Below are positions 1 to 64,000 of a stretch of 64,000 nt of DNA, piece by piece (within the stretch, counting starts at the first letter, position 1; every line of letters begins with the position of its first letter). The notes beneath the pieces are model-generated. The model was not told the origin of the DNA. It made no database searches and was given only the letters and a program-made list of their open reading frames with translations. This stretch comes from Drechmeria coniospora. Taxonomy: Eukaryota; Ascomycota; Sordariomycetes; Hypocreales; Ophiocordycipitaceae. The position numbers and the translations under genes are program-made. The stretch spans positions 5,367,222 through 5,431,221 of the forward strand of contig NC_054390.1 of NCBI RefSeq assembly GCF_001625195.1. Reading direction: 5' to 3'.

Positions 1-2
1 CT

Positions 3-8258: not shown

Positions 8259-10317
8259 TTTATTTATCTATTTATTTCAGTCTTTGGTTATGGAAAGTCT
8301 AAGGTTGAGGTTGGAGTTGATTGCCGCGCAACGTGTTGGGGGCCTCGATGGTTTGGTTATGTGGTGATGCTGAACTTGAGAACCGATTTGCTGGATATGG
8401 CGACGACGGAGAGGTAGGCACGTACACTTACAGTACGTATCAAGTACAAGTGTTCTGGCTGCGTGGTGCGGGAGAGTGCTTACATGTACTTACGGAGTAC
8501 GGAGTACTTACAACTAGGTTGGGTGTTCCGGCTTATTTCTTGTACTCCTCCGTATCCGTGTACATAGTAATAATTAATATTCGGAGTACAGCGGGGGGGC
8601 ACACAGTGGCTATCACGCAACAAGTCACTTTCCCGAGTGCCAACGTCGCACAGGTACATGAGGGGCGATACAGCTGTATTTCCATCTACTCCACAGTATC
8701 CGTACTGTACAAGTTCAACTACTGAAGGACTCCGGACGGGTTCAGCGCATGCGCAAGTAACCGTGCCAGTGTCATGCACTGTACTGTAGTCCGTAGGTGC
8801 GTAAGTACAGTACCCAACAGTGCAGCAGCACTATTGTACTTACCATGGACTCCGTAATCACTGTACCTAGTAGTGAGATATTATCTTGTAGGTGTTAATA
8901 AGCACTAATGCATTGCGTATTTGGAGTCGAAACGCTACAGCTACATAGTACCGAGTGGTAACTTGTAGTACATACCTACTTGTACGGAGGACTCTTGAGG
9001 ATTGTATTAGTGCTTAGATGTATTAATATAAGTACTGTACTGCAAACACCCGGTACATGTATCACACTTACTAGGTACCTACCTACCTCATGTTATACAG
9101 TACATGCATTAGTGGTACCCAGTATTAGTGGTAGGAAATATTGGACAATGTGCCCATTGTCTTCCACGTGGAATAGGATCAGAGCAAGATGGCTTCCGCC
9201 ACTGAAGAATCAATCTGCCGAGAAAGTGTGCAGGACAATACAATACGCACGCACGGGGTGCTCAGGGATACATGCACATGTATGTGTGCGCGGAGAAGAA
9301 TACGCGACACGACTTCATGACACGACGCCGTGGAGCAAAGCGCCCGCAGGATGAAACTCATTTGGCTTGCTTACTGGCGGGGAGGCGACATTCCATGTGA
9401 TACGTGCGAGCTGTCTGTCAGGACAGGCAAGATCTGCTTGTCCATGTATCACTACACAAAGCTACCAGCCACCGCCTAGCAGCTTCCAAGCCAACTGGAC
9501 AATTCCACCCGCTTTCCAACGGTTTCCAAACATTTCCGACGGTTTCCAAGTCACAGGTACGTACCTCTGGCGAAACAGGCAGGCGCTGGCGCCACGACGC
9601 CTTGCCAGTCGCTGTTTCCTCCCTCCCCTCACCTTCTCGAGGGCCTGCCAATGGGATTGGTGGAAAGTTGTCTCCGCTTCGCACCAGGGACGGAGGAGTT
9701 GCATCGGTGAAGCACTATGACGTCGACGATGCGTTGCATACGTTGTGCTCGCTGCGATGCGCAACTGACACCGTTTAAGCACACTTACACATCGCCTTCC
9801 AGATGACTACATTAAGATGCTTGTGCCCGGCACTTGCGACGCTGAAATACTCCATGCCGTTCAGAGTGCAATTGTTCCTGATCTCAAGCACAGGAACCAC
9901 ATACATTCATATTGCATCATCACATCACGGGAACCACCTTTCTCTCGGTCGCTCCTTCTCAAGCACTTTCACCAACACCGACACGACACGTAGGTGTTTC
10001 TCACCTGCCTATACGTGCACGCACACATAACATATATTTACCCTCATACTCTCCAAAAACCTCCATACTCTCCCATATGGTATTATACATTCTCACACAT
10101 AACACGCACTCATCGCGTATTCCCATACGTACATCTACATCTCACATCTACATCTCACATCTACATCTCACATCTACGTCTCACATCTACATCTCATATC
10201 AACATCTCTCATATCAACACACCTCACTTCTACACCTCACATCTACACCTCACATCTGCACATACACCTCACTTTTACGCAAACGACAAAGTCGACACAC
10301 ACACACTCGGAGCAACA
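8259..10317. repeat. AT-rich GTAC-word island plus gene-poor spacer
   Basis: Positions about 8400-9130 are packed with GTAC-centred short words, for example TACGGAGTAC at 8491-8500, immediately followed by GGAGTAC, and numerous GTACATGTAC, TACAGTAC and ACTTGTAC variants on both strands. The remaining part (9130-10120) has open frames on both strands but none with coding-like codon use or a recognisable product. 9880-10317 is likely promoter/leader of the next gene. Confidence 0.6.
10130..10275. repeat. Tandem CACATCTACATCT minisatellite in a 5' leader
   Basis: About twelve-base units of the type CACATCTACATCT are repeated imperfectly, changing gradually to CTCACATCTACAC and CACTTCTACAC towards the 3' end. 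The array stops about 45 bp before the ATG of the ORF at 10318. The top strand is nearly free of G here, so the transcript leader would be an unstructured C/A/U tract. Confidence 0.75.
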
Positions 10318-11073
10318 ATGCCCAAAAGCACAAGCAGGAGAACGCGCGGCGCCGTCGAGCGCAACAGCGTCATCAAGGCAACGAATGCGAAAATGCTCCA
10401 ATCAAAAGCCTCAAAGATGCTCGCCCAGTACGAGGAGGTGAATCGCATCTTCGACGCCCAATTCCCCCAGATGGCCGAGGAGCTGTCTCGGCGCCGGCGT
10501 AGCACCCAGACGTGCTCGCCTCCCTACTGCTGTTCGAGCCCGAGCTCCGACAACTCAAGCTCCAACCAACCGTCATCTCCCTCATCCTCCGGTGACCTAC
10601 CACCACCGTCAACGTGGGGCGAGGCCCCCTCCTCGAGCATGGCGCCGGACCACTTCCTCCCCGTGTTTTGCCCCTGGCCCGACGGCGTCGGCGACGGCAC
10701 GCTGCCGCCCATGACCGGGACCATGCTCCCCATGGCTCTGGATGCGAGCGACTACCTCTTCATGTCCGACATGGAGGGCCCGGCTTCCGAAACCTTTGAT
10801 CAATGGCTGACCACCGACGGCATGGTGCTGGAAGATGATGTGCTCTGGCAAGACTTTCCGCCCTCCTGCGACGCCTGGTGGCAGCTGAGCGCGGCCCCGT
10901 GCGAGTCGGTCGATGTCGTCGAGCTTCGGGAGCAGGCCGAGTCGATGGTCGGCTGCGGGCGCGGAAAACGCATCGATCACATCGTCACGGACCTCGGCCG
11001 GCTCGGCTGCCGGCTTAGGGACCATGCAAAGGAGCAGATGATCGCTGCCGGAGGGCGTGTCGCTGCGTGTTAG
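10318..11073 (+). CDS. Hypothetical protein, 251 residues
   Basis: Single exon starting at the first ATG after the CAT-repeat leader. Third codon positions are strongly GC-biased, which supports real coding. The N-terminus is basic (MPKSTSRRTRGAVERNSVIK) and is followed by a helical segment with spaced hydrophobics (residues about 20-60), then a Ser/Pro-rich linker, then a Met/Asp/Trp-rich acidic region (residues about 130-205, with WLTTDGMVLEDDVLWQDFPP). A final helix is rich in Arg and Leu. A basic N-terminus plus acidic/hydrophobic centre resembles transcriptional regulators with an activation domain, but I recognise no DNA-binding fold, so no function is assigned. I know of no homologue; it could be lineage-specific. 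Confidence 0.65.
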   Translation: MPKSTSRRTRGAVERNSVIKATNAKMLQSKASKMLAQYEEVNRIFDAQFPQMAEELSRRRRSTQTCSPPYCCSSPSSDNSSSNQPSSPSSSGDLPPPSTWGEAPSSSMAPDHFLPVFCPWPDGVGDGTLPPMTGTMLPMALDASDYLFMSDMEGPASETFDQWLTTDGMVLEDDVLWQDFPPSCDAWWQLSAAPCESVDVVELREQAESMVGCGRGKRIDHIVTDLGRLGCRLRDHAKEQMIAAGGRVAAC

Positions 11074-11184
11074 GGAATGTCCAATGCAATACGATGTAAC
11101 AAAAACTGTTCAATGTTCCCATTATAAAAACTTATGCTTCTCGTCACCCACCTCCTCCTATCCTGTCGGACTCTGCCCAGACCT

Positions 11185-11285
11185 CGCAGATGCACCCATG
11201 GCAGATGCATGCACGCCAGATGGACTCATGGCAGATGCACCCACGAGAGACGCACCCGCGGTCGATGCACCCACGGCATACTTTG
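11185..11285. repeat. Degenerate tandem repeat GCAGATGCACCCACG-type
   Basis: Successive units around GATGCACCCAYG (variants at 11186, 11198, 11234, 11258 and neighbours) run through roughly 100 bp. The array is open in more than one frame (Ala-Asp-Ala-Pro-Thr on top, Cys-Ile-Cys-His on bottom), a property of the repeat rather than proof of a gene. Confidence 0.5.
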
Positions 11286-11821: not shown

Positions 11822-11849
11822 CTTGTCGAATCGTCTGTAGGTGGATGCT

Positions 11850-13200
11850 TGCCGCTTGCAAACTGGGAGTTGGGAGCTGCGCTGGGGGTTTTCCTGCTTT
11901 TGGAAGTTTGAGAACAGGAAGAATGGCTCGGTATAGTGAACCGTTCCAGGAACTTGTATCTATCTACGGAGTACCTCGCTCTCGTTGTCGACGGAGAAAG
12001 AGACGACGAGGACGAGACTCGAGTCAGGCACCGGAGTAGTGGAAGTACTCTCTCGTACGTACAAGTAGCAGGGTGAAGACCGGTTTGCGAAACAGCGCAC
12101 AACTGTCCATCAATCCATGCCAGCATCTGGCTAACTGTCCCATGACAACCAACACGCACCAGGCAGGCGGGCTCTGTTGGTTCCGTTGCTTCATCTCCCA
12201 TGACGACTAACGTCGCCGCCCGCCCCGGCTGGTAGAGCGAGGGATCATGACTCTACTGACAGGGGGATATGCCGACTTGAGCGCCTTGTTGTTGGTCGTT
12301 GGGTTAGCTTGCGATCCCAAGTGGAAACGGGAACAAGTCAGGGCCATTCAAAGTTCCCCCAAGTTACCCTAGATTCCCGCTAAACGTGGTAGGGGTAGGT
12401 CCTTGATGCAAACACGATGCACTACGGGTACAGGAACCCCACAGCATGGGTCTGCATTTGGCAGGTAATTACTACTTACTGTAATACTTGCGACGATGTA
12501 CTTTACGGAGTACATAGACTGAAGTACTATATGTGCATTGACTTACAGTACAGTACATGTAAACATACACACGTACTGTACACATACAGAACGGAGAACG
12601 GGGTACATGTACAAGTTCTTGGTCTATACGGAGTACGGGCGCTGGACGGGCGACACGTTCTTGAGAACAGCACACCTGCAAACTGCGGTACACAAATAAG
12701 TACTGTAAAGAGTGCGGAGTACATGTACGGAGTACAAGTACTTAAAAGCCATAGTATTTAGCACCTAAGTACATGTGCAAGTACACCTGCAGACAAGTAC
12801 TGTACTTTTACTCCGTATACGAACTGTAATATTTACATGCCATGTCCTACTTACAGTAAGTAGTTGGTCATGTACAGTACACTTAAGCTAACTACTAGTA
12901 CTAACATGTACGGTACGGAGTACAGTACAGCACGGAGTACAGCACCTGAAGCACCAAGGAATACAGTATTTCATGCAGTTGCTTGCACGCCCACTGGGTC
13001 ACCCTAGTATTTCTGACATGCCCATTCGGTTGAACTTACAAGTACAGTACTGTACAGACCGGAGTCCTTGCAACCAGGTGCATGCATGTACGAGTACGGA
13101 GTAATACAGCACAGCTATTTTCATACAGTCCTGTATTAATACTACGCTTCTGCATGTACGGAGTACTACTACATTACTTGCAGCAATGGTACCTGTGCGA
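11850..13200. repeat. AT-rich GTAC-word island
   Basis: The core 12470-13180 is one of the densest islands: TACGGAGTAC occurs at 12504-12513, 12627-12636, 12726-12735, 12914-12923 and 13157-13166, with many GTACATGTAC and CAGTACAG words between. No ORF here has coding-like composition. 13200-13860 is more balanced in composition but also lacks a supportable gene. Confidence 0.65.
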
Positions 13201-16108: not shown

Positions 16109-19100
16109 GGCGGCTGTAAGTAAAGGGCGACGAGGACTGGACCGGCCGAGAAAGTTGGGAGATGGTGTAGGAGCTCAAATAGAGGTCACAGAAAGGCGCC
16201 ACAGCAAGAACAAAGCGAGCTGTGAAGGGTACAGTTCCGGAAGAGGAGGCAGGTCAAGAGAACAAGAGGACCGCATGGGAGTTGAAGGAATGTGCCTGTG
16301 AAAGCACGCAACCTGCGACACCAACCGGCAGCAACGAATGATCGGTAGGGTTAATATAGAATCTGCTGGCCCGTGTCCGAGGCCAGAGAATTTGGATTGT
16401 GCTCGACCTGCAAGACTGCGGTGCGGACCTTGGCTTCGGTCTGCCCTTGGATCTTGGCCCCAGGCAGCATGGGTGTCGAGAAGCGGTACGGCGCCGAGTG
16501 ATAGCCCAGGCGACGACTAAGCTCATGCTTATGGCCCCAGCTCACCCCCCTCTCGATCGATAGCTATTTCGAACGGATGGCGGGCATGAGGAGGAAGCGG
16601 TGGCCGTCGTCTGCATCGAGCCTCGCACCCTTGTCCCCAGGCGGCATTGAGTGCAATCGGGCGCAGGGATTGGCAAGGTCCCCCCTCTACGCTTTCTTCC
16701 GCTCGCCATGGCCAGCTGGCACACACATGTACATGCATACCATGGACTTGACTTGCAAGAGCCGCCGCGTTGGCCGCGTGGCTGCGTTGGCCGTCTTTGT
16801 TGGTTGGCCGCTTCGAGTCTGCCACAGTCTGCCACCAAACACCCACTCGTCGGATAGAGGCCCGAGAAGCAGATTTGACGAGCCCGGCTGGTGACCGACC
16901 CGTGTCTCTCCACAAGACGACGGTGCATGATTGCCGTCGACGGACATTCGACGGCACGGGTTGCGACCAATGGCAGGACGTAGTGTCCGGCTCGTGTGAC
17001 GGCGAGCCAGCTTGATCCAGATCCGCCCGTGGTAGGAATAGAACAGCACCAACGCGCTCCGCACTCGTAGGCTACGTGGAAAACGAGAAGCAGCGCGGAA
17101 AAGAGAGAAACGACGGAGAGACACGAGAAGGCAGGCAGCCGAATTCCCAGCTCAAGGTTGGAGCAAACGAATGACTGCGCACGGCAAGCGGGCTGATTGG
17201 TTAGCGAGCCATGACGATTCGTGGCAATCTTGCCTATCTTGCCTACCAACCGAAAAGACGATGCGCTGGGTGGAGTCAAAGGCAAAGTCGACTTTTGAAG
17301 TCATATCGACGGGATGGACGAGGGGCGGATGAGGGGAGGGAGCTGGCGAGCCAACACGCCCACCGACGTGATGTGATGGTGGGAGGCATGGATCCCAGAT
17401 TCATGACCAGATGACTGGACGGCGATGGTTGGCCGAATACCGCCGCCTGCCCACCTTTCTCTCCCACCTTCCCGCCCACATTTCCCGCCTTCCCTCCCAC
17501 TTTGGTTCGCGCTTGCCGAAGTTGGCGGCCAAGTTTGGCAGCTGCCTGGGACACAGCAAACAGTTTAAGTCAAATCCAAACCGTTGCTGCCTCTTTGGTG
17601 GCGCCGCTTGCCGATGGAGTTTTTCCTTTGTGCAGGTGCGGAGGACGGAGAAGATGACTACTTACACCGGCAGGCGACGCACTCGTAAAATTCAGGTGCT
17701 GTAGTATGAATGTACAGTATGAAGTGATTCTCCGTATTCCGCACTTTACAGTACTCCGTACTAATCTGTACTTACTGTACAGTGCCAGTACTGTATACCG
17801 GGACCCCCCCCCCCCCCCCCAAATACATCGCAGTTGGCGTATTGATAATTCATTGCGCACTCCGTACTCCGCGCTCCGTATTGCAAGCCCAAGCCCAAGT
17901 ACATCGGCATTGTTGGACAATGTGCATGCATGCACGAGTCAATATTCCATAAACGTGCACGACGTACTGTGCAGCAATCATATCCAGCCCTCGAGGAGAC
18001 CTTGCCCATTTCGTCTGATGTGGGAGCAAAGTCTTGGAGCCTAGAGACAAGGTCTCCAACTCGATGCACACGCCGCCCCGTGGCCCCCTCTTCCGTGCCA
18101 CGATGGGTAACAGCGAGGTAACAGCGAGGAGAACAGCGATCGAGTTGGCACGAGTGTTTGCTCACACGCTTCGAAAGCTCGTCAGCCAGCCTGCCATTGG
18201 GGTCGAAATAGCGAGCTCGAGCGCACGGCCGCGAGATCGAGGCAAAGTACCCTCAGCGGCCTGGCGGCCTTTTGCAGCACCAAACCCCAACCGCCATCTC
18301 AACACTCTCGCACTGCGTAACGAAGGCACAGGGGTGAATTTGCGGTAGACTCCCCCATAACGAACGTTGGGAGACGTCGAAGTGATGGACATAATGAACG
18401 ACGGCTCATACGCTTCTCGCATGGACAAACAAGTTGTTTGTGAACGGTACACCGTTTGGCAGTCACCGTCACCAAGCCGTACACCGCCTACTTGGTCATG
18501 CGCATGCAAGTTCATGCACGTCCTGGCGTCAGTGGACAAAGAACAAGACAGCACACAGCACAGCACAGCACAGCACAGCACAGCACCGTGCCCTATCGTC
18601 CAGAGACACCGCAGCACGGCACAGCATAGCACAGTTCTGTGGTCCAGAGACACCGCAGCACACACCGCCCAAGGATTACTTCTGCTTCGTCTACTGCTAT
18701 GCCGCCTGTGTTCGTGAACAATGTTGACTGCCGCGTCGGGCCTCGCTTTGAACAGTTCGCGACGTCGCTGAATGGGCAGGGCAGCTTTGCGATTTCTATT
18801 TTTAAACCATCAGTAAAACACTGTCCTGAATGGAGTGGCTAAAAATGCCTCTCCTCCTTGGACCTCCTCCTGGGACCAGCTCGACACAGAAGATGAAGCG
18901 AGTGAGGCTCACCAACGACAGAATACATGCACTTGTAGCATTCGAATCAAGTTTGCACATCGTGGCCATCCTACATCATCACCGACCACCTTGTCGGCTG
19001 ATGCACGTGCTGGCGCGAGGAACAAGGAGTATGGCAGTCTACTTCATCTTGGTAGTCTGGGCATCTGCCCAAGCCGAGCCGTCCCCGTCGAAGAAATGCT

Positions 19101-26302: not shown

Positions 26303-28435
26303 CTACACGGTCGGAGAGGGGAGGCAGGTGTTTCGGTTGGACGGCTGTCGTCTCTCGAGGCCACGTTCATATGGCTGAAAAAGTAGCTTGCTGAGGCGTA
26401 TGTCACCGCGGGAGGGAGGGAGGGGGCGAGCGTTGGGGGGAGGCACGCGGAGCCGGACAGTCAGCCTGTGATGGCGGTTTTGGCCCGTCGGCAGCAGCAA
26501 ACAGCCCGCACGCCTGGTCGGTTGATTGTGCACAGCGTGGCGGGAGGCCCGAGAATGGGCCAAAAGATGGGTGAAAAGTGCAGTGGTGGACGAGAGAGGA
26601 CGACGATGCTCAGGCCGAATGATTGCCGGTTGGGACAGGGGGAGTCGATCGGTCGGCTGAACGGTTGGAGGTGGAAGGAATGGAAGGGCATAGAAACAGC
26701 GTGCAACTACTGATGCAATTAGTACTGTTGGATGCTTAGTGATGGTGGTGGAGGTGGCATGGATCGGGAAAAGAGGCGCCGTTTGTTGATGACGGCCCTG
26801 GATGGTGCCTTGGGTGCCTTGCGCTGCCGCCTGGAGGGTGTTTGCCGTCGCACCTGAGTGGCCAGGCGGTTGCCTGTTGTCCCCTTGGGGCGAGGGATAT
26901 GTAGGGGAGGGGGGCCCGATGACGGGTGGGGGCCGATGGAAGCACCCACCATCCCACTCTTAGCACGGATACCTACTGTAAGTAAGTAAGTACGCCTACA
27001 ATCAGGTGTTGGGTACGGAGAAGTACAAGTATGACTTGCCACCCCAGGTCACCATTCGTCATCATTGGTATGCACATGTACTCAAGCATAACGTACAGTA
27101 TACTTAGTACCACAAGTACTAATGTACCTATACTAGGTACCAAGCACCGAGAACTCCGTACTAACAATACTGTAAGTACAGTTCTTGCACTCCTTACGTT
27201 GTACATCAGTAGCGGTGACGTGCAGTACTGTACGGAGTATTAATTACTGTGCCCCCAACAGTTGCACACACATGGATTTACTCCGAGTACTGCACCTACA
27301 GTAAGTACTAGGTACCAGCAATACAAGGATAAGTACTTGCAAGTTCTGTCACCACCTTTACTTTGCAGTAGTGACGGTATGACTACAGTGCTCGTGCTCG
27401 TACAAGGAGTACATTTACTTGTCCTTACGCGTTAGTAGGCTGCAAGTATTAATACTCCATATTCCGTACGTGCACACTACCTTCGTACCTTAGTACCGTT
27501 ACCTGTATTGGTACGGAGCACTAAGGCACCTGTATCGCAAAGCATAATTACAGTACATGTATTCCGTACTTGGCTGCAGTTATACCTGGAAGCCCAACTC
27601 GCATTCGCCGTTTCCCCAACATGTTCTTTACTACTAGGTGTACCTGACCTCTGCGCAGCGCAAGTATACTGTAGGTGGAAGCAACTAGAAATTTTATTCG
27701 TCGCCCCGCGGCGTGTCAGTCACTACAAACTGCGAGTACTTGTGCCGTACGATTAGGCACACGGCAGCAGTTGTGCGAGAGCTCACGATCCCTTTCGGTC
27801 TCCCGCGAGCACCATGCGTGACAGCAAAGATTGATGCTAGATGAACAAGACAAGTTTCGAGATGCGTCACTCATGCATGACTGACCACGTGTCCATAGTC
27901 CCGCAAATCCGATCACAGATGGATGGCCTTCAAGCACCGAAGCAAAACCCTTGCCACGAATCAAGCGAGGTGTCTTGTCAACATCGCATCGCCCCCTCCC
28001 GCCGCAGGCCGGCGGCAAATCTGGCCAGAAACTCTTGCATGCTTCATCTACCACACGAAAACCCATCGCATTTTGGAGTAATGGGTGTCTGCTCTTGATG
28101 CCAACAGCGAGGTCGCACCACTCACCCGCTCACATGGTGTCGTCGAGGAGAACAAGTAACAAGTTGCAGGAGCTGCATGGAGAAACCTTGATCTATATGT
28201 ATGCGTCGTGAGAAAAGAGGAGCTCCTGCTTCTACCCTCCCACCGAGCCTGTCATGTCAGGCTGAAATCACCAAGCTGCAAACACGTTCATCTGAGCATG
28301 GCCAAGTCAAAGTACGTTGGCGCCACAATTCCTGCATGGCAGCAAGCGGTGGAACCAAATGGCGCACCGGGGCCGGCTTATGGATGGCACAGTGCACCGT
28401 CAATGGACACGCCTCCCGCTGTGCCAACATGATGG
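26303..28435. repeat. Spacer with AT-rich GTAC-word island
   Basis: 26303-26950 is GC-rich leader-like sequence with no supportable gene. The core 26960-27560 is a GTAC-word island (TACTGTAAGTAAGTAAGTAC at 26970 onwards, GTACGGAGTATTAATTACTG near 27230, many TACTAGGTAC variants). 27560-28435 contains short open frames without codon bias or recognised products. Confidence 0.55.
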
Positions 28436-30297: not shown

Positions 30298-32262
30298 GAT
30301 GACGGAGCAACGCTGAGCTCACCGATCGAGCGAAAGGAGCCGCAGGTGCTGCTGGTGAGCAGGCGAGCAGGGGCAGGGCGGGGAGATGCGAAGGATAGGG
30401 CATCCGGATGAATCAGCGGTGGCAGCAAGGCGTCTGGACATGCCATACATGATGGATGGAACCGCGACCTGGACCTGGAGCTGAACCTGGAGCCGGACAG
30501 GAGAGGCGGAAGGGGAGAGAGTTACGGTGTGAGGCCCGGCGAGCCAACGCCTCGCCGATACGAGGGCCGCAGGCCGGATTCTTTTCGTGTGGGGTGAGAT
30601 TCGGCCACGGAAGAGGTAGGGAGGGAGGGTGATGATTGATGATTGACTGACGTGCTTGCCTCCGGCGCCCAGATCCCGTGCGTCTTGGAGGCCTGGTCGG
30701 AGCGAGCCATGCACGGGGGTTGGCCGCGAGGCAGGGATTTGGAGGGGTCGCAGGTGCCAGCAGATGAATGATCCAATGACCCCCCAACGGCCAAAGGGGG
30801 GGGGGGTTTCCAGCAACCCCTCGTGGGCTGACACGTCCAGGATCCATGCTCCGTTCGTTGCCTTTGTCGGTGAAGCACACAGACGATGTCTAGTCCGAAT
30901 GCACAAACAAAGGGCGAGGCGCCTCCAGGTACGCTACAGCTGATTTGTCCACATACAAGTATCTGTCCATGCTGCGCGGCCAGGAGTCGGTCGCTCCGCG
31001 CAGCCGAGAGGCTAGGCTGGCAGGGACACGGTCGCGTTGCTTGCATCATGTGCGGTGCAGCTGCACTCCTGCTCGGACGCCCTCATGCCGGCCACACCGC
31101 AGTTGGATGCTTGGTTCGTCGACAAGCTGGTGAGGCAAGACATGCTGGAGGTGGCTGAGCCAGCATATGCAGGCGTCATTCACCTGCAGACCAAGAAGCT
31201 GTAGGTGCACGGAGTAGATGCAAATGGAAAGGAGAGGAAAGGCCCAACAGGTCAACAGGCACCAGGCTGCCACCGCTTTTCAGATCACAGTTTGCCAGTG
31301 ATGGTCGTAATCCATGCGGCAGATGATGGGCGAAATGCCCATCCATAGGCGCAGTTTCAAGCGATGGTTGATTATTACCATTGGTTTCCGCGGTAGAGTT
31401 ACCTTTTACACCTACTACTTACTGTAGGTACTGGTGTCGTAGTAGTACAGTGACTCGACAAAAATGGCGATTCAGCTTTGGTGGTGCTACTCGTACAGAT
31501 TGAATCGACCTTTTTGCCACCCTACTGTACTTACTCTACCTACCGCTACCCTAGGCTGTAACTACCGCTACAGTACTGTAGTGCACTGCACGCCTACACT
31601 TAAGTACTTGTACTGTACTAGCTGCTGTAACTACCTAGGTAGTGGCTAGGCAGGCAGGCACTGAAGAAAGACAGAAATTATTAGTAAGTACCCCGTACTC
31701 CAGGCAGCTATTACAAGTACAGTACGGAGTACTCCGTATTAATACAAGTAATAATCGCAACAATGTACGGAGTACGGAGCTCAATGACTTACTTACTTAC
31801 TCACTTACTATTACCTACTTGCCAACTTACCTACATACTTACTTGACCCTTACTTAGTACGTACTTGCTTACCTGAAAGCCAGTCCATCTTCTTCGCCGG
31901 AGCGGGAGCGAATTACTCCGAGGCCCACTGAACGTGCTGACTGGACGCTGAACGAACCTCACACGTCGCATTCCCGGCTAAAAAAAAGACCCATCGTGGT
32001 TCCATCCGGGTCGCGTGTCGTTTGATGGAGCTTTCCCATGTCGCCTTTGGATAGCCGACGAGTTTCCAACATCATCACCGTTCTGCAGCGCACGGTGGGC
32101 AGCTCCCGACCCAACACACCCCTTCTCGTTCGTGGATAAAGGAAGTTCCCTGGCTCGACGCTGACGATTGGGTGCAACGATATGCTGTAGGAACCCGCCG
32201 TCGTCACCCCCTCCTTCCCGAAACCCACCTGCTACTGTCCACTGCCCGTCTCCGTCGCAACC
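30298..32262. repeat. Divergent intergenic region with GTAC-word island
   Basis: 30298-31250 is GC-rich with a G-run at about 30796-30805; open frames on the bottom strand lack coding bias. 31380-31880 is a GTAC-word island (TACGGAGTACTCCGTATTAA near 31724, TGTACGGAGTACGGAGC near 31763) followed by ACTT/TTAC tandem words (31785-31860). 31990-32262 is presumably the promoter of the MPDU1 homologue. Confidence 0.6.
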
Positions 32263-42700: not shown

Positions 42701-45575
42701 GTATGTACACTTCAGTGCTGGTGCGGAGAATATGTATTAATACTTTACATGCTACTAGGTAGGTAGTACACAAGAGTACAGAGTACAACGTACACCTAAT
42801 TACCTACAGTAAGTACTTGTATTACTGGCGGCACGTACGGAGTACTTGCTCCATGTACTCATACTCGTGAAATGGATCCAAATCTTCGGGACAGGCGTCA
42901 ACATGGCAAAGGCATTCTCGCCCCCACAAGCTTTGCTCTTGGCAGATTTCGAAGATCAAAAATCCATCCTACATCCATCCTACATGTGCTCATTGAATGT
43001 CAGACGCTTTTGGGAGGGAGACGGCAATGTCGGCTCCCGTGCCTTGCTCCATCTGTGAGGGCCCAGTGTCAGCTGCTGCGGCCTGTGGCTTGCTCGTTGA
43101 TGTGTGGCGCAAGCCGCAAGCGCCGCCTCAGCCTCCTCCTCGTCTTGCCGACAGAAACCATCAACAAACGGTCATCGCCAATGCCGAATGAAGCCTTGCT
43201 TGGCACGCTTCCATTCTCGAAACTCCCCATCAAGATGACCAGACTGATCATTGCTGGTCTTGGCTTGCCGGCAGTGACAGGTACTTTCCTCCAACTCTCG
43301 GCGGCGTCGCTAGAAGGGGACGGAAGCCAAGTTTTCCCCCGCCGCCGATTCGCCACGGAAATTACATTCAAGCCTCCTCGACCAGCATGGCGAACGAGTC
43401 CCCCTGCCGTCTGCATCGGTGGGATCACAGCATCACGGCAAGGGAAAGTTTCGTTCCGACTTCCGAGCAGTGACACGCGGCAACCGGCAACCGGCAACTT
43501 CAACACGAGGCAGCACGGCACGACAGAAGGCTGCATGCAGGCACCTACTCGCTCCGACATGTCATGGCCACTTGGAGAGCCGCATAGCGTACCTTTTCCA
43601 TGCAACCTAGTCACGATGTTGCTTGTGGACGTATCTACAGGTCATATGCTTGCACTATTACTCCGTGGGCCAAGTATGGAGCGACGCCCAATCGTCCCCT
43701 TTCGCTGCTCGGTCCATCGAGTGACATTCATTGATCGTCAACTGAAACCCGAATCCCTCGACGCTCTCTCTCTGTGTGTGTGTTTCTTGCTCATCCTGCC
43801 TGCTTACTCATGTCGACTGCACAGACTCCCACGGGATGCTTCGTCCAATGAAGCGGCCGCAATGCCGCCACGACCAGCCGAGATGTTGGCGATCGGGCAC
43901 GTTATGCCTCCGGGACGCGTCATCGGGTGCCCCCATCACAACTTGCCTGACACGAACGACCATGATTCAGTGGCACAACCATCTCCCAGCAACTCGTACA
44001 GCCAGACGCAACGACTGGTGAAGTGAATGCATGCTGCCTTTCTCATGTACCCATCGTTGACCGAATGCGAGAGTCTGTCAGGTCGGCTCATGCGAGTCCT
44101 GTCTTGACATTCTTTCACTTCCCGAAGCTCCAACGCATGCTTGCGATGCTTGGGCGTATACGGAGTATCCTGTGCATGTATCTCGCACATGCCGCTTGTC
44201 TCGCTTGCAGCATGAGAGAGGACGGGATCGTATTCTCTCCGATGGAGTCCCGTCCGCTGTCGCCTGGGCGCTGACACCCCCCGCCTGTGTCTCGGGAATC
44301 GGGTTGAACCGAACGAGAAATACAAAGGTCCTCTTGTCGCGTTGAAATCTTCCTTGCCCTGTGGATCTGCCGCTGGCTGGCAGCACCAATTGACACAACT
44401 CGGCTTCTAGACCCAACCCTACCTTGGCCCCGAAGACGAGACGATCGTGCGGACGGCTTGGCCCCGGCTGACATCCGATGCAAGTGCTGGTCGTCGTGGG
44501 CGTGCTAGCCTGCACGCTGCTACACCTCAAAGTCATCCGCCTCCTGTAGCACGAGACGAAGGAACCGTCCAGCATTCTAACAGTATTGGTTGCCTGTGGC
44601 GGGAAATCCACTGCGCAAGAGTAGCCTCAGCTGGCGACTGTCTCTTCCGGATATTCGGCCATCGCAGCATATCACCTGAGCCTCGCCCATGATCGCACAC
44701 ATTCTCCTCCATGGCACGCCATCGCCGGCACTTTCTTTTTCTTCTGTACGCATGAAAGTCCTGGGTTCCACCACGAAAACCTTGCTCAACGGCGTGGATG
44801 GGGGTCATCGCCGTGAGGGCGACGGGAAGAGGGGGGGCCGCGCAATCCAGTGCGCACCATCTCGGCCGGCCCAATCTATTTGCACAGGTGATTGGTGTTG
44901 GCCCCTTGGAAGCTCTCGAGCAGTCGTCGCGAACGGAGAGTATGGACGGTAGCAGCTGGCGAATTGAGTTTGTGCAGCTCAGCTGCTTTCGCGTCTGTCC
45001 TGCAGGCATGATTGGGGGGAACAGCCGCGCATAACACCAGAGCTTTGCGTATGTCTCGTCTGGATGGTGTTGTTTCTCTCACAAGCCATCCATTGCCTGC
45101 ATCGTTGGAGTATTGAATATTCCTCGGTGGTAGAATTCGAGCTCCAGCCATCCACAAGTCCGTGAACTTGGTGCGTCCGCTAGACAGAGCCGCAACTCTG
45201 CTTGACTTGCACATTGCTGTTGCAGTGTATCGTCCACTCACGTCGAGACGCATCTCTGATGTGCCTCATAACGCCCTCAAACAGGCGAGGGAAAAATCGG
45301 GTTTCCAAATCATTCAAGCCGATATACTGAGTGCCCGCCTAGACGGGGCAGGATGATGATATCAAAGTACAACAAAATTGTATGAAACCATCGCGCGTCT
45401 GGGCCTCGCCCCCGATGCCATGCGTCATCGGAAGGCCTCGTGTCACCCACAGACGATGATATTGCCCTCCGAGTCATATGCCTTGAGAAAGAGGTCAGGG
45501 AAATGACCATCAACGCTCCTCTCGTGCTCTTCGCCACGGCGTAGCCGCCTCTGTCTGTCGCATCCCTCACTCTTT
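39771..45575. repeat. Six-kilobase gene desert with GTAC-word islands
   Basis: Dense GTAC-word sequence occupies about 40185-40410 and 41860-42860 (for example GTACGGAGTACATGTACAG near 42355, and TTACTCCGTACTTACGGAG near 42463), with scattered motifs at 40735-40900 and 41330-41730. Between the islands composition is more balanced, but no frame except the weak ORF at 42872 is longer than noise. I find no transposon remnants such as terminal repeats, reverse transcriptase or transposase. Confidence 0.6.
42872..44026 (+). CDS. Doubtful orphan ORF, 384 codons
   Basis: An ATG-initiated frame open for 1155 bp. Length alone is the argument for it. Codon third positions are not clearly GC-biased, amino-acid composition (Arg, Pro, Ser, Leu) resembles random translation, frames on the other strand are also open over part of it, and no domain, signal peptide or repeated motif is visible. 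It begins at the edge of a GTAC-word island. I list it so it can be tested; I lean towards it being spurious. Confidence 0.18.
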   Translation: MDPNLRDRRQHGKGILAPTSFALGRFRRSKIHPTSILHVLIECQTLLGGRRQCRLPCLAPSVRAQCQLLRPVACSLMCGASRKRRLSLLLVLPTETINKRSSPMPNEALLGTLPFSKLPIKMTRLIIAGLGLPAVTGTFLQLSAASLEGDGSQVFPRRRFATEITFKPPRPAWRTSPPAVCIGGITASRQGKVSFRLPSSDTRQPATGNFNTRQHGTTEGCMQAPTRSDMSWPLGEPHSVPFPCNLVTMLLVDVSTGHMLALLLRGPSMERRPIVPFRCSVHRVTFIDRQLKPESLDALSLCVCFLLILPAYSCRLHRLPRDASSNEAAAMPPRPAEMLAIGHVMPPGRVIGCPHHNLPDTNDHDSVAQPSPSNSYSQTQRLVK

Positions 45576-54094: not shown

Positions 54095-54129
<35 letters not shown>

Positions 54130-54718: not shown

Positions 54719-57117
54719 AGAAGCGGAGACACCCGGGTGTGATTTTGCCGGCGAGGGCACAAGCGGACGTCAAAGTGCCGGCACCGGCGCGAATTATTAC
54801 GCACAGGAGGTTTTGTTTTGAAGCATTCACGTTGTGGAAGAACAACAATCTTAGTTTATGGATGGGCAGTCTTTGGCACTTTTGGGGCTCGTTTGCAAGT
54901 CACAATATATGGGCATGACGGTTGTAAGATCAGTGAATAGTATGGAGTGAATGGTACCCTTTGTCACCAAGACGGCTCCGATGATGAGGGAGGGTCGTGG
55001 CTGGAAGGCATCGCTGGTCGTATTCCATGAACCTGAGCACGATGGTGCCCATGTGTGTGGCGGCACAGAGCGGAACGACGAAGCAAAAATCTCGCTTGCA
55101 CAAATACAAGCGTACGCAGCAACAAGCATTACAGTACGTGTACAACTACGGAGTAATTCTGCATGGCTCGATGTCGCTTGCCAGCTGGACATGACAGGAT
55201 TTGCGAATGGTGGATCCGATAATTTGGCTGGTGCGTGATTGCGTGGTTCAGGTCTCGGCTGCGCATGCGGAGTAGTATTGATTGCCAATTGCCAAGGGCT
55301 CATGGTTGAATTCGAGGCTGCGAGGGCCGCGCCGATGCAATCTTGTCATTGACGAATGCCTCGTTGGTCCATTCGCGCGGGCCAAGGGCCTCGGCCTGGC
55401 CATCACATGGGGCGGATGAGACGGACGAAAACGGCCTTTTGACGAGATGGCCTGACGGAGGCGCTCGTAGTGGTCGAGTTGCTCAAGGGAAGCTCCATTG
55501 ATCCGAATCGTGTCCGCCGGGGTGTCGTCTTGGCAAGGGGGGTCGGGGGGTCGGGGGGTCGGACGGACGAACGGAGCGAGGCAGACGAAGCAAGAATGCG
55601 TGGCGGTTCAGAGCGTGTGACGGCGCTGGGCGGTCCGTCCCTGTTGACTTGGGTGTTCAGGTACTAACTAGCTTGAGGTACCTAGAGAGTACTAGTGCGA
55701 AGAGAGTGTCGACATGACGCCTGCATGTTCACTTGCGAGCATAGTGTACGGCTGGATTGCTAACAAGTACCTGTAGTAGGTGCATGCAAGTACCTATACA
55801 GAGTCCATGGAGGTGTTACTCCGTACTCCGTACATGTGGTTGCGGTAAGTACAGGCAATACAGCACATGTCGTTATTATTGTGCAAGAGTACAAGTAATA
55901 GTGTAAGTACTCTGTGGTTTCTGGTAGTAATAGTAAGCAAGTACCTACCTAGTACCTACTAGGTAATACAGTAGTACTGTGCGGAGGATTGGATCAGGGC
56001 ACTCGGTACGTGTACTGTACGCTTGCACCTAGGTACACAGCATACTGACATTAGGCAGAACTCGTCCAGGATAACGTAACGCTGTAACTGACTGGGCGAC
56101 AATAGTACGCTGTCGGCACAGATTGCGATGATTACCTATGCAAGTGCTGTACATGCCATTCTGTACCTACAAGCAGGTGTACTTGTAGGTGTACACGAAA
56201 AGGTACTTCAGCTCCCCGTCTGTACGGAGTACGTGCATGTCATGAATAAATAATATAGCACGGCTACTCCGTACATGTGCTGGACATGCATGTGCTGTCA
56301 TTATTTTACAGAGTACTTACATGTGGTTGGAGTGAGTACGTGCACCAACATGTAATTAAGTATTATTACTTACTTTACTCAGTACAACGACCTAACAATA
56401 CAGGTAGTTACAGTACACGTACAGTGCGGAGTATGGGGTAGTACGTACTTCCACCACCTGCCGGGTCCGCCCGCTATTTCTCCAGGGTTCCTCGTTATTC
56501 CTCCCCGCCCCAACCAGGGCACCTCTTCGTCGTAATATCGGTCGCATCTCCGAGTCGATCATCTCACACCCGTGCTCGCACCGCCCGTGTACATATGCAT
56601 GTACTATGATGATAGGGTACGAGTACTGTACACTCGAGCACCGTACTGTACTTGCTTGCCTTTTGGCTAGCACGGCCGGACGTCCCAGCGGTACCTGCCG
56701 CCCGCACCCCTTCGACGCGAAGAACCGGATGGCATGATCGTTATTACTGGCAACGGCTGGAGTCGTGGGCCGATTCGCGGAATCTTGCATCCTGCTGTGG
56801 CATGGAATAGTCGCAGTGGAATGTGCCCGTCATGGGAAATGGTACAGCATGCGGCACACGTACAAGCACACACAAGTGTGTCGACAGCTTGACCCCCCCA
56901 ACGGCCGTCTTGCCACAACCGTTCCAGTTCTACGCAGAGATGCTTACCGCCGAGTGTACAGCCCGAATCCATTGCAGCCAAGCACTACTCGCTAGGTATC
57001 TTCCGATGGTGTTCATGCTGTGCCATTGCAGCGTGCAACGGCAAAAGAGTACTGGGTAGTCCGTGACTACGGGGTATGCATGGCGGTCACCCGTACCGTA
57101 ATACGGCGTGGCAATCT
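54719..57117. repeat. Spacer with AT-rich GTAC-word island
   Basis: 54719-55660 is mixed sequence with no supportable gene. 55665-56460 is a GTAC-word island (TTACTCCGTACTCCGTACATG near 55816, TACCTACTAGGTAATACAGTAGTACTG near 55950 shown here only in part, TGTACGGAGTACGTG near 56221). 56460-57117 has short frames without codon bias. Confidence 0.55.
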
Positions 57118-58277: not shown

Positions 58278-60128
58278 GCTGCCAACAAGTCGACCCAGAT
58301 ATACACTCGCTGCCTTTTCCTTTTTTCTTTTGTTTTTCAAGGAGGAGATGCCACCCTTGCTTGGCTCGTTCGAATGGAGTCCACAGATGTGCGGCGTTTG
58401 GGGCAGAATCTTGCCAATATATACTAGAATCCTACGATTCTTCGACCAAGTAATATGCTGTTATGAAGGTAATTAGGTGCGCATCGATATCCCATTCATA
58501 CGCACGAACAGTATTCCATGGAGAAATGTACATACATGTACACCTGCATATACAGTACAGTAGTTGTAAGTACTGTAGTTGTACTCCGTAAATGGTTGTA
58601 AAAATGAACGGGGTATTATTTCATTATACCTTGCATTCTTGGACCGAGAACCAAGCAACCCGTAATACGCTCCGCATCCAAGGGCCCCCGCTGCTAGATT
58701 GTGCAAGTATGCAACTAATGCCGTGTGCACCCACAGTACTAAGTAAGTATATGTACGGAGTAGGTGTAAGAGGATTGCAAATACGGATAGATACACACTA
58801 CTCAGCACTCGCTCGTACATGAATACACTCTCACAACTCTTCGTACCCTCAAGTAGATCGGAGACGATGGCGAAACAAGTGAATCGATTCTTGAATACTC
58901 CTTTATGCGGCCCGCCATAGACGCTGTGCTGTGTCTGGGCCTCTAGCCTCTCAGAAAGTAAATAATATAAAGAGCAAATCTACTTACTGGGAAGGTAATG
59001 GAAAGTGGAAGCCGTGTGGTTTGTATCGGAATCCTATTGCGAATGCGGACTGTACAGCTACTCCGTACTCTGTACTATTGGCACTATTCTGATGTACTTC
59101 AGTATTTGTACAAGTACATGCAGGTGTAACTATACTTACTGTACTCCGTACTTGGACTTGGTATGCACTGCGGGAATATTACCTGTTCCTTCGAATACGA
59201 CGTTGCGCCCGAGATTGGTGTACGTAAAGTAAGTGCAGGTACAGTACGGAGGATTTTGCAGTATTTCGCTGTACACCTACACGTACATGTAATTACTTGT
59301 AGGTGCATCTGTACGTTCTTACTGATACAGTGCTCCTACATGTAATATTCCCCATGTGCTATCGACAATACTCCGTACCGAGTCGAATATGCCCAGTCGA
59401 GGCTGGGGCAATATGAATGAAAACTACAGGTAATACTTACACCTACATGCAGGCTTCTCATGCTGTACGCGGCACAGGAAATGTACAACTGCTAGTAATA
59501 CCACTGATTCCTTCAGGTGTTGCACGAGGAATAGCACGAATACTTCTACTCCGTCGAGATACCGCACCTACTTGCACTACTGTGCTTGGGAACAACGCAA
59601 TGCAAGCTTGGTGCATACCTAGTCCAAAGCTGTGAGTGCCAGAGAGAGGGTCAAGGGATGCAAAAGCGTGACAGTAAATGCTCCGTACGGAGTAGATAGG
59701 ACGGGGTTTTTAGCTCCCGGTGCTGGGAGATGATGTGACGATTCATCACAACATGTACTTACAGTACATTACCAGTGATGAGCATGGATACAGGCACTCG
59801 GTGCATGCATGTGAATAAGGAGAATATCAATGCCCGAGTGAAGCTACTTGCTCACCAATCGTACTAGTACTGGTGCGATGCATGTGAAGGGAACCATGCC
59901 GTCGTGCGTCCATTCGTGCACAGTTCGAATATTTACTGTCCATCTACGCACTTACTTGGTTGTCCATGCATTAGTTGTACATGTAGAATCTACTCCGTAT
60001 TCATTGACACACACTATGTATACTGATCAATACAAAATACATGGTCATTTCCCTTCTTGAACATGGTAGAAATAACAGACGTCGTAGTGCTCTCGTGCAC
60101 TACATCATCTCCGCTCAACGAGATGTCG
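58278..60128. repeat. AT-rich GTAC-word island and carboxypeptidase 3' flank
   Basis: 58520-58800 and 59040-59480 are rich in GTAC words (ACTCCGTAC near 59060, TACTGTACTCCGTACTTGG near 59138, TACAGTACGGAGGA near 59240, CCGTACGGAGTAGATAGG near 59682). No gene with coding bias is present. 59950-60128 is probably the 3' flank of the carboxypeptidase gene. Confidence 0.6.
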
Positions 60129-62053
60129 TCATCTCAATCTTGGCCGCGTAGCCAGAGGCCAATCCTCGGCTTTGTTGTACAGAACCCCGTTGATAAGAAC
60201 GCCGCCTCCATGGAAAGCCAGATCCCAGGCATCATCGTCGCAGGAATGGAGGTTGCGGACGGAGCACTTTGGTTCGGATGCGGCCGGCAGCGTGTGACTT
60301 GTGGTTGATTGCAGGCCGCCTCTCGTGGCGAAGGAATGCAAATCGACAGTCTCCCCCGTCGAGATGGATTTGCCCGCCATGATGCGCGAGAAGATGCTGA
60401 ATGCCGTTTCGGGCTGGTAGGAGGCTACGGCGTGGCCGGACTGGAATACGCGACTGAAGGAGAGGTTGCCATACTGGCGAACCTCGCCGCCGGTGTAGGT
60501 GGTGTTGGTGGCAATGGGAGCGTAGCCTGCTGCCGGAAACATGGCGGCATACTCACCCCCTGCCGTCTGAGCAATCTTCAGCGAAACGGCCTCACCTCCC
60601 ACCCAGTTGCACATGAAGTCTCTGTCTCCATACATGAGCCCTATCCGAATGCCGCTGTTGAGGAGCTTCGCCAGCCGATCTATGTTACCACCCCGAGCTC
60701 TGTCGCCTCGTTTGTAGTAGAAGTTGTCGTAAACGGCGTTGCTTGTCAAGGTAAAGTTCACGGGCGACCCAATCGCCGCCAGAACATCGGCTTGGTTGAG
60801 GTATTCGAGGAAGTGGAGCGATGGAAACGGACTATAGAATCGCTCTGCTATGTCGTACCAACTTCGTCCATATTTGCGGCGAAACGCCCTGAGTATCTCG
60901 GCATAGCTCTGATACCCTTGCGTGCAAATATCATCGGCCTCGGTCTCGTTCGTTGCTCTTCCGGCCTCGCTCTGCCTGGCACTGGCGGCACATTGAGCGA
61001 GAATCTGCTGGCTGCCGCCGACGGCCGTAAAGTTCCGCAGGAGGGACTCGGTCACTTCGCCGGAGAGTGGCTCGATGCCGTACGTATTGTTGTTGAGGAA
61101 ACGAAGGTAGGCGGGGATTTCAGTCGCCATGTCGATGATCCCACTCACAATCCCTACCGATGCGAGGCGTATCTCGACCGGTAAAGGCCCGTCCGCATGG
61201 CCAGCTAGGCGTTTTCGATTCTGATTCTGGGCCTGCCACGTCTCGGCAAATATCGGGGCGAAAATGCCGCCGTAGCTTTCGGCAAAAAGGCTAACCTCCA
61301 GAGTCGACGCATTCAGGGGGAGTTTGAGCTCGGGCAAGGTGGTTAGGAAGGCTTGAATGACGTGCCAAACCGCCAGGGCCGCCTCCTGGCTGGTGCCGGC
61401 TGTGTTGTTGACATTCCCACTGCTGAAAGTGCCATTGACCAAATCCCAAGAGGGTACCGTGTCCGGGTTGTAGATGGGCGGCGTCACTGTCGAGGCTTTC
61501 ATCCTGTACAGGGTACCGTCCGTGGGTACGTCGTAGGAAAAGCCGGTCTGGACGGGCTGTCGGAATGGATGGGGTTAGTCGAGGGGGTTGGAACATGCCA
61601 GCGGTGAGCGCATCGGCGTACCTGATCGATGAAGAGCATGTTGGAAGCCCGGTCCCAGCCCCATTCTCGGGCAACGGTCTCGTACTCGTCGAGCCCTCTC
61701 TCGACAACCTCGCAAGGCCCGTTGCCGGTGAAGAAGCCGTACATGGAGCTGGCGCCGGGCCCGCCGTTGATCCATACCGTCAGGTTATCGGTTGCGTTGC
61801 GAGCTTCGACGAAGTAGAAGAATATATTGGTAGGATACTCATTGGGCACGCTAACCCACCCCGTGTATTGCTTCTGCGCATCGGAAGCGGTGTTGCAGAC
61901 TCCACGAGGTTCCTTGAACGACACGGTGACGTTGCCCGGGTAGGTCTTGACGGTCAGGTTACGAGCATTCTCGTATCGGTGGATAAACTGGGCGTGAGAA
62001 AAGCGGGAGGACGTGAGCAGCAGCGCAGCGAGCATGAGACGCATGGCGGCCAT
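60129..62053 (-). CDS. Secreted serine carboxypeptidase (peptidase family S10)
   Basis: Exons 62053-61622 and 61556-60129, intron 65 bp (branch CGACTAACC); product 619 residues. A signal peptide spans residues 1 to about 21 (MAAMRLMLAALLLTSSRFSHA). The S10 hydrolase fold follows: LTVWINGGPGASSMYGFF gives the oxyanion hole, the nucleophile Ser238 lies in FAESYGGIFAP, the catalytic Asp is in GLMYGDRDFMCNW and the His in VFQSGHAVASYQP. The splice joins NMLFIDQ to PVQTGFSYD, a signature S10 junction. Many NxT/NxS sites indicate a glycosylated extracellular enzyme releasing C-terminal residues from peptides. About 80 residues beyond the His form a variable tail containing Cys pairs (EPKCSVRNLHSCDDD). 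ATG 62053 or the one at 62044 could serve as start. No protease cluster is nearby. Confidence 0.94.
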
Positions 62054-64000
62054 GCGCGATGGAGCTTTTGTGGCGCAAACGGGTCAGGTTGAGTGGCTCG
62101 AGAGGTAAGCGGTGGCGAAGGTCGATGAGCATATACTGTAGGTACTCACGCACGAGGTGTAAAGGAACGAAGACAGTTTTGCTGCTGCTCGAGTGCACAG
62201 TAGAGTGCTGGCATTACGGTACTTATATGGACCAAGGACGAGGCTCGGGAATGATGAGTTCCAAGGAGTGGACTGTGTGCTTTGAGCCACCACTCAGGAT
62301 ATGCCATGTGCCTGCGCTGGCAGCACATGATGTCGTACTTGCTTGGAAATGCATGCAAGTACGTTGGCAGTAATTACAAGAACTCCGTAGATACAGCACA
62401 TGATCTCGTACTTGGAAATACTTACATGTACTGTACGTTAGCAGTACAAGCACTCCGTAGATGCATGTGCACCTGTTTGGGTTCATACGTACTTGTATTA
62501 ACTGAATTTGCCGAGGAGTCTTCTATTTACATGTACTTGAACGGATACGAATTTTCATATTTGACGCGCCTTTTTGGTGTGCCATAATATGTACTGTAAC
62601 ATTAATATAAGTATTGCTATTGTAAACCTAGCGTAGTCTGCAGGTGCGCAAATGCTTACGTTTCCTTGTATTACCTGTACGGTGTCAAGTTCCAAGTACC
62701 TGGAAGCTGGCACAACAAAGAACAAGAAATACAACTATAGACTGGCATTTTAACTGGCCCCGCCCCCAACCAACTTAACAGTCAGTCTATTACGGAGTAT
62801 ATATAGGGATACCTTCTAATACTCTATCCTATCTACTGTACATAAGTACTAAAGCAATACTTACAACTACTTAGTTTAATTACAATGCATAGTGCGGAGT
62901 AATTTCTCCGTACTTACTCCGTAGTTGTACATGCAACTACAACTACAGGGCCTCTACTCCGTACTGCGCAAGGACAAGTACGGCTAATACTTGTGCCCTG
63001 TCCATGTACTTACTGAACTTGCCTACAGTATACAGTACTCTACAAGTAGTAATACATGTACGTTCTGCGTGTACTTGTGCTAGGTAACTACTTGTGCTCG
63101 TTGTACTTACACCATGAGCTGGGTGTTTCCTGCGATATACGGATGGTACTTATAATAAGTCATTCCGTTACAAAGGAATAAGCAAGCAATAATACAATTG
63201 AGAAAATTTTGGATGGATGTTGGGGCAACGGGCATGTAAATACTTACATCCACAGTACAGCGCCAAGTACGTTACGGCTCGTATTTTGTCAAAGCGCTGT
63301 CCGGACTCTTGGACGATGGCTCCATCAGGACAGTCGAGAACATGCAAGACCAAGTCTTTCATGAGCGGACGGCAATAGGCGAATGCTGCTCCGGCATTCG
63401 CAGGTCTGCCGCGTACCGGTCACGGGAGCAAACCGGCGGCGGCAAAGCCGGACACGAAGCGATGAATTGTCGGTGAAGATGGCGACGATGAACGGTGACG
63501 CAACGCGAGCAGTACCATGATGACACATGCATTTCCCTTTACTTACACGTACGGTGCTATTCCTGTCCAGGATGCCACGCAACGTCCGAGACTCTACCAC
63601 GTGCACGACGCACACGAGCAAGAGTGTCTCTTGTCGTTGCTTACGTCGACGTGAACGTGCCGCAGTGGCAGGCAAGGGATGCGGTGCAGGTTACTTCGTG
63701 ACAATTACTGCGACAAATCCAGCACTAACCAACTTGGCAAGTGGACTGTTGCGGCGGGGAGCCGAATGTTTCGGCTACAAATGGCTCTAGGCAGAGCGAC
63801 ACAAGTACAGTAAGTAAGTAGTCACAGTCTAAATGGCATGTCCGGCCGGTAAGTGTACAAGTACATGCACATGTAAGTAAGTATGCCCCGTCATTGTGAC
63901 GAGAGGTCGTCGTCGTTGCCGTTGACGTCGCCACGGCTCCGTACTCGTGCATGGACTGCACTGCAGCGCACCAACTACCGAGCTCGCAGCGTGCTTCAGT
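62054..64000. repeat. Carboxypeptidase promoter and AT-rich GTAC-word island
   Basis: 62330-63160 is a GTAC-word island (TATTACGGAGTATATATAGG near 62788, TTTCTCCGTACTTACTCCG near 62905, CTACTCCGTACTGCG near 62953). 63160-63700 is more balanced and has short bottom-strand frames (63168-63362 and 63325-63675) that could be exons of a gene running off the window, but I cannot build a consistent chain. 63800-63890 returns to GTAC words. Confidence 0.5.

Follow-up and report, generated by a model that had tools for sequence, protein, structure and literature searches.

Intergenic spacers of Drechmeria coniospora are enriched genome-wide in a restricted vocabulary of short TA-X-TA words

Word islands of the window

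The window analyzed here is a stretch of 64,000 nucleotides of chromosome II of Drechmeria coniospora, a nematode endoparasite (NC_054390.1, positions 5,367,222 to 5,431,221), in which intergenic spacers contain islands of short recurrent words, many of them carrying the tetranucleotide GTAC. The published genome is described as having 8,281 genes, 55% GC, three chromosomes (12.5 + 10.2 + 9.8 Mb) and signs of active repeat-induced point mutation (RIP) (PMC4792172). Eleven islands had been named in the first-pass annotation; they are given below, without strand, together with an additional island, two examples of words read from the sequence, and a flanking gene.

8400..9100: word island, with TACGGAGTAC at 8491 and 8498, the two copies overlapping and 7 bp apart
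12400..13200: word island, the densest, with TACGGAGTAC at 12504, 12627, 12726, 12914 and 13157
12603..12612, plus strand: example of GTACATGTAC, with the word TA-CATG-TA
13043..13054, plus strand: example of TACAGTACTGTA, TA-CAG-TA and TA-CTG-TA sharing one TA
17700..17900: word island, with GTACTCCGTA at 17751
27000..27600: word island, GTAC-rich (28 GTAC in bins 27001-27750), without exact TACGGAGTAC or GTACTCCGTA
31400..31900: word island, with TACGGAGTAC at 31723 and 31766 and GTACTCCGTA at 31729
34600..35100: word island, with TACGGAGTAC at 34687, 34794 and 34801
37001..37250: word island additional to the first-pass list, with 8 GTAC and TACGGAGTAC at 37080
40200..40400: word island, from counts
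41900..42900: word island, with TACGGAGTAC at 42353, 42463 and 42836
55700..56500: word island, with GTACTCCGTA at 55823 and TACGGAGTAC at 56223
58500..59500: word island, with GTACTCCGTA at 58581 and 59141
62300..63100: word island, from counts
60132..61574, minus strand: flanking Peptidase_S10 carboxypeptidase gene, context only, its product identical to DCS_04575

GTAC is found 503 times in the window, where 184 occurrences are expected from dinucleotide composition, and 253 times in the eleven named blocks (~7.1 kb), where the blocks' own dinucleotides predict 97. Among the longer words, TACGGAGTAC occurs 16 times in these blocks against a dinucleotide expectation of 0.03 (18 copies against 0.03 at the level of the window), GTACTCCGTA 5 times (0.02 expected), GTACATGTAC 6 times (0.10), TACAGTACTGTA twice (0.02), ACTTGTAC three times (0.65) and GTACAAGT 8 times (0.53). 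Two other four-base palindromes are raised in the blocks, CATG (75 against 28) and TGCA (71 against 35); GATC, ACGT, AGCT and CTAG show no rise. Islands beyond the named list lie at about 4.75, 37.0, 41.3-41.7, 56.5 and 61.5 kb.

Counts over the whole genome (32.8 Mb) were compared with a backward control, the same word with its letters reversed. TACGGAGTAC is present in 11,348 copies (62 reversed), the 9-mer TACGGAGTA, referred to below as the lead word, in 16,386 (196 reversed) and the 11-mer GTACGGAGTAC in 8,489 exact copies (21 reversed). Closer counts were made in a 314-kb sample, made up of the window and 25 further stretches of 10 kb each, and gene-based counts in its 21 loci above 45% GC (264 kb), five AT-rich loci (50 kb) being dropped; in the 264 kb, the lead word stands 210-fold over dinucleotide expectation. 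The enrichment is therefore real, large and genome-wide. The islands reported by the first-pass annotation are confirmed, and the outcome that it had named as fatal to them, words no commoner than composition predicts, is not what the counts give.

In the window, no Rfam match at the gathering score and no tRNA were found. Two open frames carry repeats of their own: the one at 52778-54715, with a WSC domain (PF01822), contains a long 12/18/36/60-bp minisatellite at 54021-54517, and the one at 9994-11073, which is perhaps no gene, contains a degenerate 13-bp tandem repeat of ACATCTACATCTC at 10131-10257.

Word grammar and position relative to genes

Coding and noncoding sequence were separated by our own hexamer hidden Markov model, trained on the sample without RNA evidence, and at least one of its gene calls (9998-11054) looks doubtful. 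Many of the over-represented strings in 138 kb of predicted noncoding sequence share the skeleton TA-X-TA with few favored X. Relative to a trinucleotide model, which already contains the words' own bias, X = CGGAG is raised 50-fold (203 copies), CACC 12.7-fold (52), CAAC 9.8-fold (43), CAAG 5.6-fold (95), CAG 5.3-fold (284), AG 4.3-fold (342), CC 3.9-fold (237) and A 3.5-fold (325). The palindromic AT (160 counts, 8.3-fold) and CATG (148 counts, 8.1-fold) are tallied twice in both-strand counts and correspond to 80 and 74 places, respectively. CAGAG (24 copies, 8.2-fold) and CTCCA (12 copies, 6.2-fold) are one change away from CGGAG/CTCCG; CGCC, CGGA, AGTG, CAGG and GA are raised 2-3-fold, and the remaining X among those shown (at least 12 copies, no TA inside X) lie at 0.5-1.9-fold. 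Runs of poly-C/poly-G are also over-represented in the noncoding sequence of the 21 loci (CCCCCCCC, 184 counts, 83-fold over the trinucleotide model), and CCCC shows a weak negative correlation with the TA-X-TA words in 300-bp bins.

The bases adjoining the two TAs of TACGGAGTA are mostly G and C (mean 0.72). Because of this preference, and because words can share a TA, GTAC arises where words occur, and most of it, though perhaps not all, can be put down to the TA-X-TA words: with the listed words set aside, 1,022 GTAC remain, against 351 from dinucleotides (2.9-fold) or 872 from trinucleotides (1.17-fold). Information content drops low within 2-3 bases of four of the five words tested, the exception being TACCTAGTA (n = 59), with up to 0.54 bits at 3-4 bases out. 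Between GTAC pairs, spacings of 5, 6 and 7 are in excess (110, 115 and 164, where longer distances give ~60) and those of 8-10 fall short (31, 39 and 48); no longer period was seen in the spacing counts. The earlier description as a vocabulary rather than a single repeat unit thus holds, with a restricted set of X. Its two qualifiers hold in part: the AT and CATG words are palindromic, but the skeleton is TA-X-TA and the lead word, TAC-GGA-GTA, is an imperfect inverted repeat; the absence of a fixed period is true of longer distances, but a loose short-range rule is present at GTAC spacings of 5-7.

In the 264 kb, the lead word is found 203 times in noncoding and once in predicted coding sequence, TACAGTA 284 and 4 times, and TACAAGTA 95 and 2 times, respectively. 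Coding GTAC (668 on both strands, against 314 from dinucleotides or 723 from trinucleotides) is near model expectation and spacer GTAC is raised, so the motif family is better described as enriched outside genes than as avoiding them, as had been proposed: the words are indeed rare in coding sequence, but coding GTAC is not below background.

Within spacers, the words are scarce close to gene ends and commoner further out. Measured from the nearest 5′ end, the lead word starts at 0.8/kb (first 150 bp) and 0.7/kb (next 150 bp), reaches 2.6-2.7/kb at 450-750 bp and stands at 1.6/kb beyond; from the nearest 3′ end, it has 0.3-1.2/kb within 750 bp and 3.3/kb beyond. The 5′ side is thus denser than the 3′ side within 750 bp, and convergent spacers and sequence more than 750 bp from 3′ ends also carry copies. 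GTAC density is 18.0/kb in divergent (n = 16), 16.0/kb in tandem (n = 28) and 9.2/kb in convergent spacers (n = 12). In tandem spacers the lead word has no strand preference (29 against 28). Different words co-occur in 300-bp bins, the rank correlation between the CGGAG and CAG words being 0.50 (0.39 after removing GC), and the association is weaker for some pairs (CGGAG and CACC, 0.09). In the five AT-rich loci the lead word is absent, where their own composition predicts 0.65 copies and the noncoding density elsewhere about 70; most other words are near expectation there, the highest being TACACCTA (3.1-fold), TAAGTA (1.4-fold) and TACAACTA (1.3-fold).

How copies of the words age

Genome-wide, TACGGAGTA has 21,453 one-mismatch copies, against 5,825 for the backward control, so that the excess of about 15,600 is near the exact count and the ratio of the two (N1/N0) is ~0.96. 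For GTACGGAGTAC, exact, one-mismatch and two-mismatch copies number 8,489, 15,363 and 23,777, against 21, 665 and 9,013 in the control. A transition is the commonest mismatch at all nine positions of TACGGAGTA. Pooling of four words gives a transition/transversion ratio of 2.49 for the TA positions, against a background of 0.83, and the transition leads at all 16 of these; the CGGAG core has 2.33 against 0.50. The adjoining G/C has 0.33 against 0.50, with the transition leading at 2 of 8. For three of the four pooled words the X positions were left out, since a substitution there turns one word into another; at these positions the transition is often not the leading change. Among 300 control 9-mers with two TAs the ratio is 0.58, and in five further words, unpooled, the transition is on top at 17 of 20 TA positions.

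One-base deletion forms are in excess: GTACGGATAC has 504 copies, against 311 for three sister words together, some of the latter in a tandem array, and all such forms in the sample number 31 where 12.7 are expected. One-base insertion forms show no excess (4 against 3.7). Counts at an equilibrium between point mutation and selection should not depend on mutation rates, and the transition bias is therefore read as decay: units would originate complete and exact and erode afterwards, the flanking G/C being context outside the unit. The positions of TACGGAGTA differ in how many mismatches they carry (10 at position 7, 52 at position 8; chi-square 47); this speaks for some recognition or for partial units, and against simple neutral decay. 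Two-mismatch noncoding copies number 539, against 314 from dinucleotides or 544 from trinucleotides; because this excess depends on the background model, it does not discriminate between continuous birth of copies and one old burst.

Possible origins of the words

The likeliest account, to which we give a rough probability of 0.45, is that the islands form a conserved lexicon of protein-binding words with weak selection on each copy and rapid turnover. The middle parts of the spacers would be filled with protein-recognized TA-X-TA words, and the lead word TACGGAGTA, often within GTACGGAGTAC, would be a binding element common to distant Pezizomycotina. A D. coniospora factor, possibly of the SomA type or a C6 protein, may read the lead word; its copies, at about two per gene, would be individually weakly selected and turn over, and the words may keep gene-free spacers open or regulated. 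The copies would stand off mutation-selection equilibrium, either decaying after weakened selection or being replaced by newly written exact units.

The lead 11-mer is the reverse complement of GTACTCCGTAC, the motif obtained for Aspergillus fumigatus SomA by chromatin immunoprecipitation sequencing and present in 119 of 476 peaks, and mutation of the site at agd3, a one-base variant of the motif, abolished the SomA shift in an electrophoretic mobility shift assay (PMC7667024). SomA also binds the motif in the meaB promoter (PMC10900910). The 11-mer further contains the 9-bp core of CTACGGAGTA, the consensus of the direct repeat and predicted target of the A. fumigatus Starship Tardis; in Af293 the k-mer frequency of that word exceeds the 99.99th percentile, and the word overlaps JASPAR UN0291.2, a predicted motif of the C6 zinc-cluster type; a transcription factor site was suggested for it, its nature being left open (PMC12153272). 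As an anecdote only, a diagnostic primer for Coccidioides contains GTACTCCGTAC (PMC8486383).

As far as the available parts of these sources go, the motif in the two fungi is the identical 11-mer and may be denser on the upstream side of genes in both, but in A. fumigatus it was found in the peaks mentioned above, whereas in D. coniospora there are thousands of exact 11-mers and a wider lexicon, to which binding is presumed from the sequence. The Tardis word has the same core and the same genome-wide over-representation with its function left open, but the work on it concerned a target of a transposon, in a Eurotiomycete, without analysis of a lexicon, its distribution or its decay. The uneven mismatch counts (chi-square 47) are as expected of a recognized site. 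Of the explanations offered by the first-pass annotation, dense protein-binding sites gain independent support from the identity with the A. fumigatus motif; its interpretation as a whole is partly supported. Short words hugely over-represented genome-wide are known in bacteria, namely the highly iterated palindrome HIP1 and the DNA uptake sequences (DUS/USS); these are single words that also occur in coding sequence, whereas in D. coniospora there are many words, almost only outside coding sequence.

The TA-X-TA lexicon is unmentioned in the available parts of the D. coniospora genome accounts (PMC4792172, PMC4859500), and none is described in the titles and abstract openings among the matches listed in our literature searches, which does not disprove its description elsewhere; text searches with longer forms of the lead word gave no paper. 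Viral contigs of the IMG/VR database, six of which hold GTACGGAGTACGGAGTAC, were rejected as a fungal comparison and none was used. One of them (L039) is a phage contig (terminase, portal, capsid) with GTACTCCGTACTCCGTAC and six CGGAGTAC; two others (L034 and L035) share sequence and carry repeated GTACTCCGTAC/GTACTCAGTAC in a 7-bp register, and the one protein of L034 that was searched matched only its own cluster.

Several points weigh against the protein-binding lexicon. The 16,386 exact copies of the lead word for 8,281 genes far exceed a regulon; the word is present in 27 of 56 spacers and absent from 29; and its density varies little among divergent, tandem and convergent spacers (1.54, 1.56 and 1.24/kb). 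Different words share islands, which is unlike separate regulons. The SomA motif was derived with MEME from peaks in a genome that is in any case rich in a near-identical word, and no background correction is seen in the available part of PMC7667024; SomA itself was not identified in D. coniospora, where only three LisH matches were found. An N1/N0 of ~0.96, with mismatches dominated by transitions, would be unlike what point mutation balanced by selection should give.

In a serious rival, possible if somewhat doubtful, exact TA-X-TA units are written in one step into TA sites of open spacers (+4 to +7 bp) and then decay neutrally, like the footprints left by excision of TA-targeting cut-and-paste elements or by a domesticated TA-cutting enzyme. 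It is to be taken seriously because it accounts for where the units end, for how they decay and for the range of X. The footprint of Sleeping Beauty, a Tc1/mariner element, is TAC(A/T)GTA (PMC3432063), and in the 314 kb TAC[A/T]GTA occurs 309 times against 31 for TAC[C/G]GTA; TACAGTA and TACTGTA, which make up one of the strongest word families in D. coniospora, are identical to that footprint and the TA-X-TA form is alike. The high transition/transversion ratios at the TA and core and the low ratio at the adjoining G/C would place the end of the copied unit at the TA, and deletion derivatives are in excess. Donors, however, are unseen. Mariner-type elements published for D. coniospora number 23 + 20 (PMC4859500); in our genome-wide search, in which only DDE_3 was sought, there were at least 6 matches, and around them no matching element ends were found, no inverted repeat flanking a match within ~1.5 kb either side (one locus, L042, has one 20-bp pair on one side). 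In the 264 kb there are 14 TA-flanked exact inverted repeats of 12 bases, against 2 AT-flanked ones; the 14 are mostly made of words, and a single one reaches 14 bases. CGGAG/CTCCG is not a simple symmetric overhang product, and for the word to occur in Aspergillus too, the same writer would have to act there. The mismatches are uneven over positions and insertion forms lack an excess; words are chained by a shared TA no more often than expected locally (127/440 against 218/876, p 0.13), and autocatalytic chain growth by that route is thus unsupported. To our knowledge, no known element matches the CGGAG, AG or CC words. A more far-reaching proposal, which we regard as unlikely, is that a TA-cutting transposase, recombinase or repair reaction keeps inserting exact TA-X-TA units of 6-9 bp into the open DNA between genes; the outcome would be tens of thousands of nearly neutral, decaying micro-elements, whose words transcription factors would come to recognize and giant transposons to use as insertion targets.

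An unknown mutational attractor of replication or repair favoring TAC...GTA, such as slippage or template switching at short inverted repeats, is improbable. It would fit the inverted-repeat skeleton TAC-N1..3-GTA, the GTAC spacing peak at 5-7 and the raised CATG and TGCA, but only certain X are strongly enriched (CGGAG, observed/expected 50) and many others with at least 12 copies lie at 0.5-1.6, four palindromes (GATC, ACGT, AGCT, CTAG) are not raised, spacings of 10 and 14 (48 and 70) form no clear ladder of the kind simple slippage should leave, and most words are unenriched in the five AT-rich loci. The first-pass suggestion of a spreading micro-element or attractor thus gains a decay signature but lacks a donor element. 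That spacer composition, microsatellites or RIP residue suffice without any special process is hardly credible: the islands are indeed ~38-57% GC between flanks of mostly 55-70% GC, but the 210-fold excess of the lead word exceeds what dinucleotides give, and the word contains no CpA or TpG on either strand, so that RIP neither makes nor destroys it directly. A RIP product was likewise rejected on the AT-rich loci, where the lead word is unenriched (0 against 0.65) and two of which (L017, L024) look clearly RIP-like. A degraded transposon, repeat family or miniature inverted-repeat transposable element was rejected because four of five words have no longer consensus and the island searched is single copy: 12401-13220, the one island compared with the genome (very common words skipped), matches only itself, and in the self-comparison of the 314 kb the 40 rows shown of 150 all lie within or between AT-rich loci. 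No fixed-period array explains the islands either, the tandem rows in the named islands being a weak ACTT row at 31787-31872 and two two-copy rows of 15 and 23 bp. The first-pass judgment that the islands resemble neither microsatellite, minisatellite nor degraded transposon is accordingly borne out by period, repeat and genome searches.

Two sampled loci hold arrays of their own. L021 (C2:200001-210000) carries at 1-5750, in a stretch of 41% GC, a long tandem array with offsets in multiples of ~111 bp and an identity between copies of mostly 63-81%, and L026 has, at 2394-2465 and 2901, five TA-CCTAGTACTGTA copies, spaced 16-23 bp apart, with an inverted copy opposite them at a distance of 430-505 bp.

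Should the words be binding sites, one conserved element would be present in the spacers of D. coniospora at about two copies per gene, and motif discovery such as that for SomA would have to be judged against thousands of background copies. Should they be micro-insertions, they would represent a new route for the spread of regulatory words. Either way, the question left by the over-represented word of Tardis becomes testable in a second fungal class.

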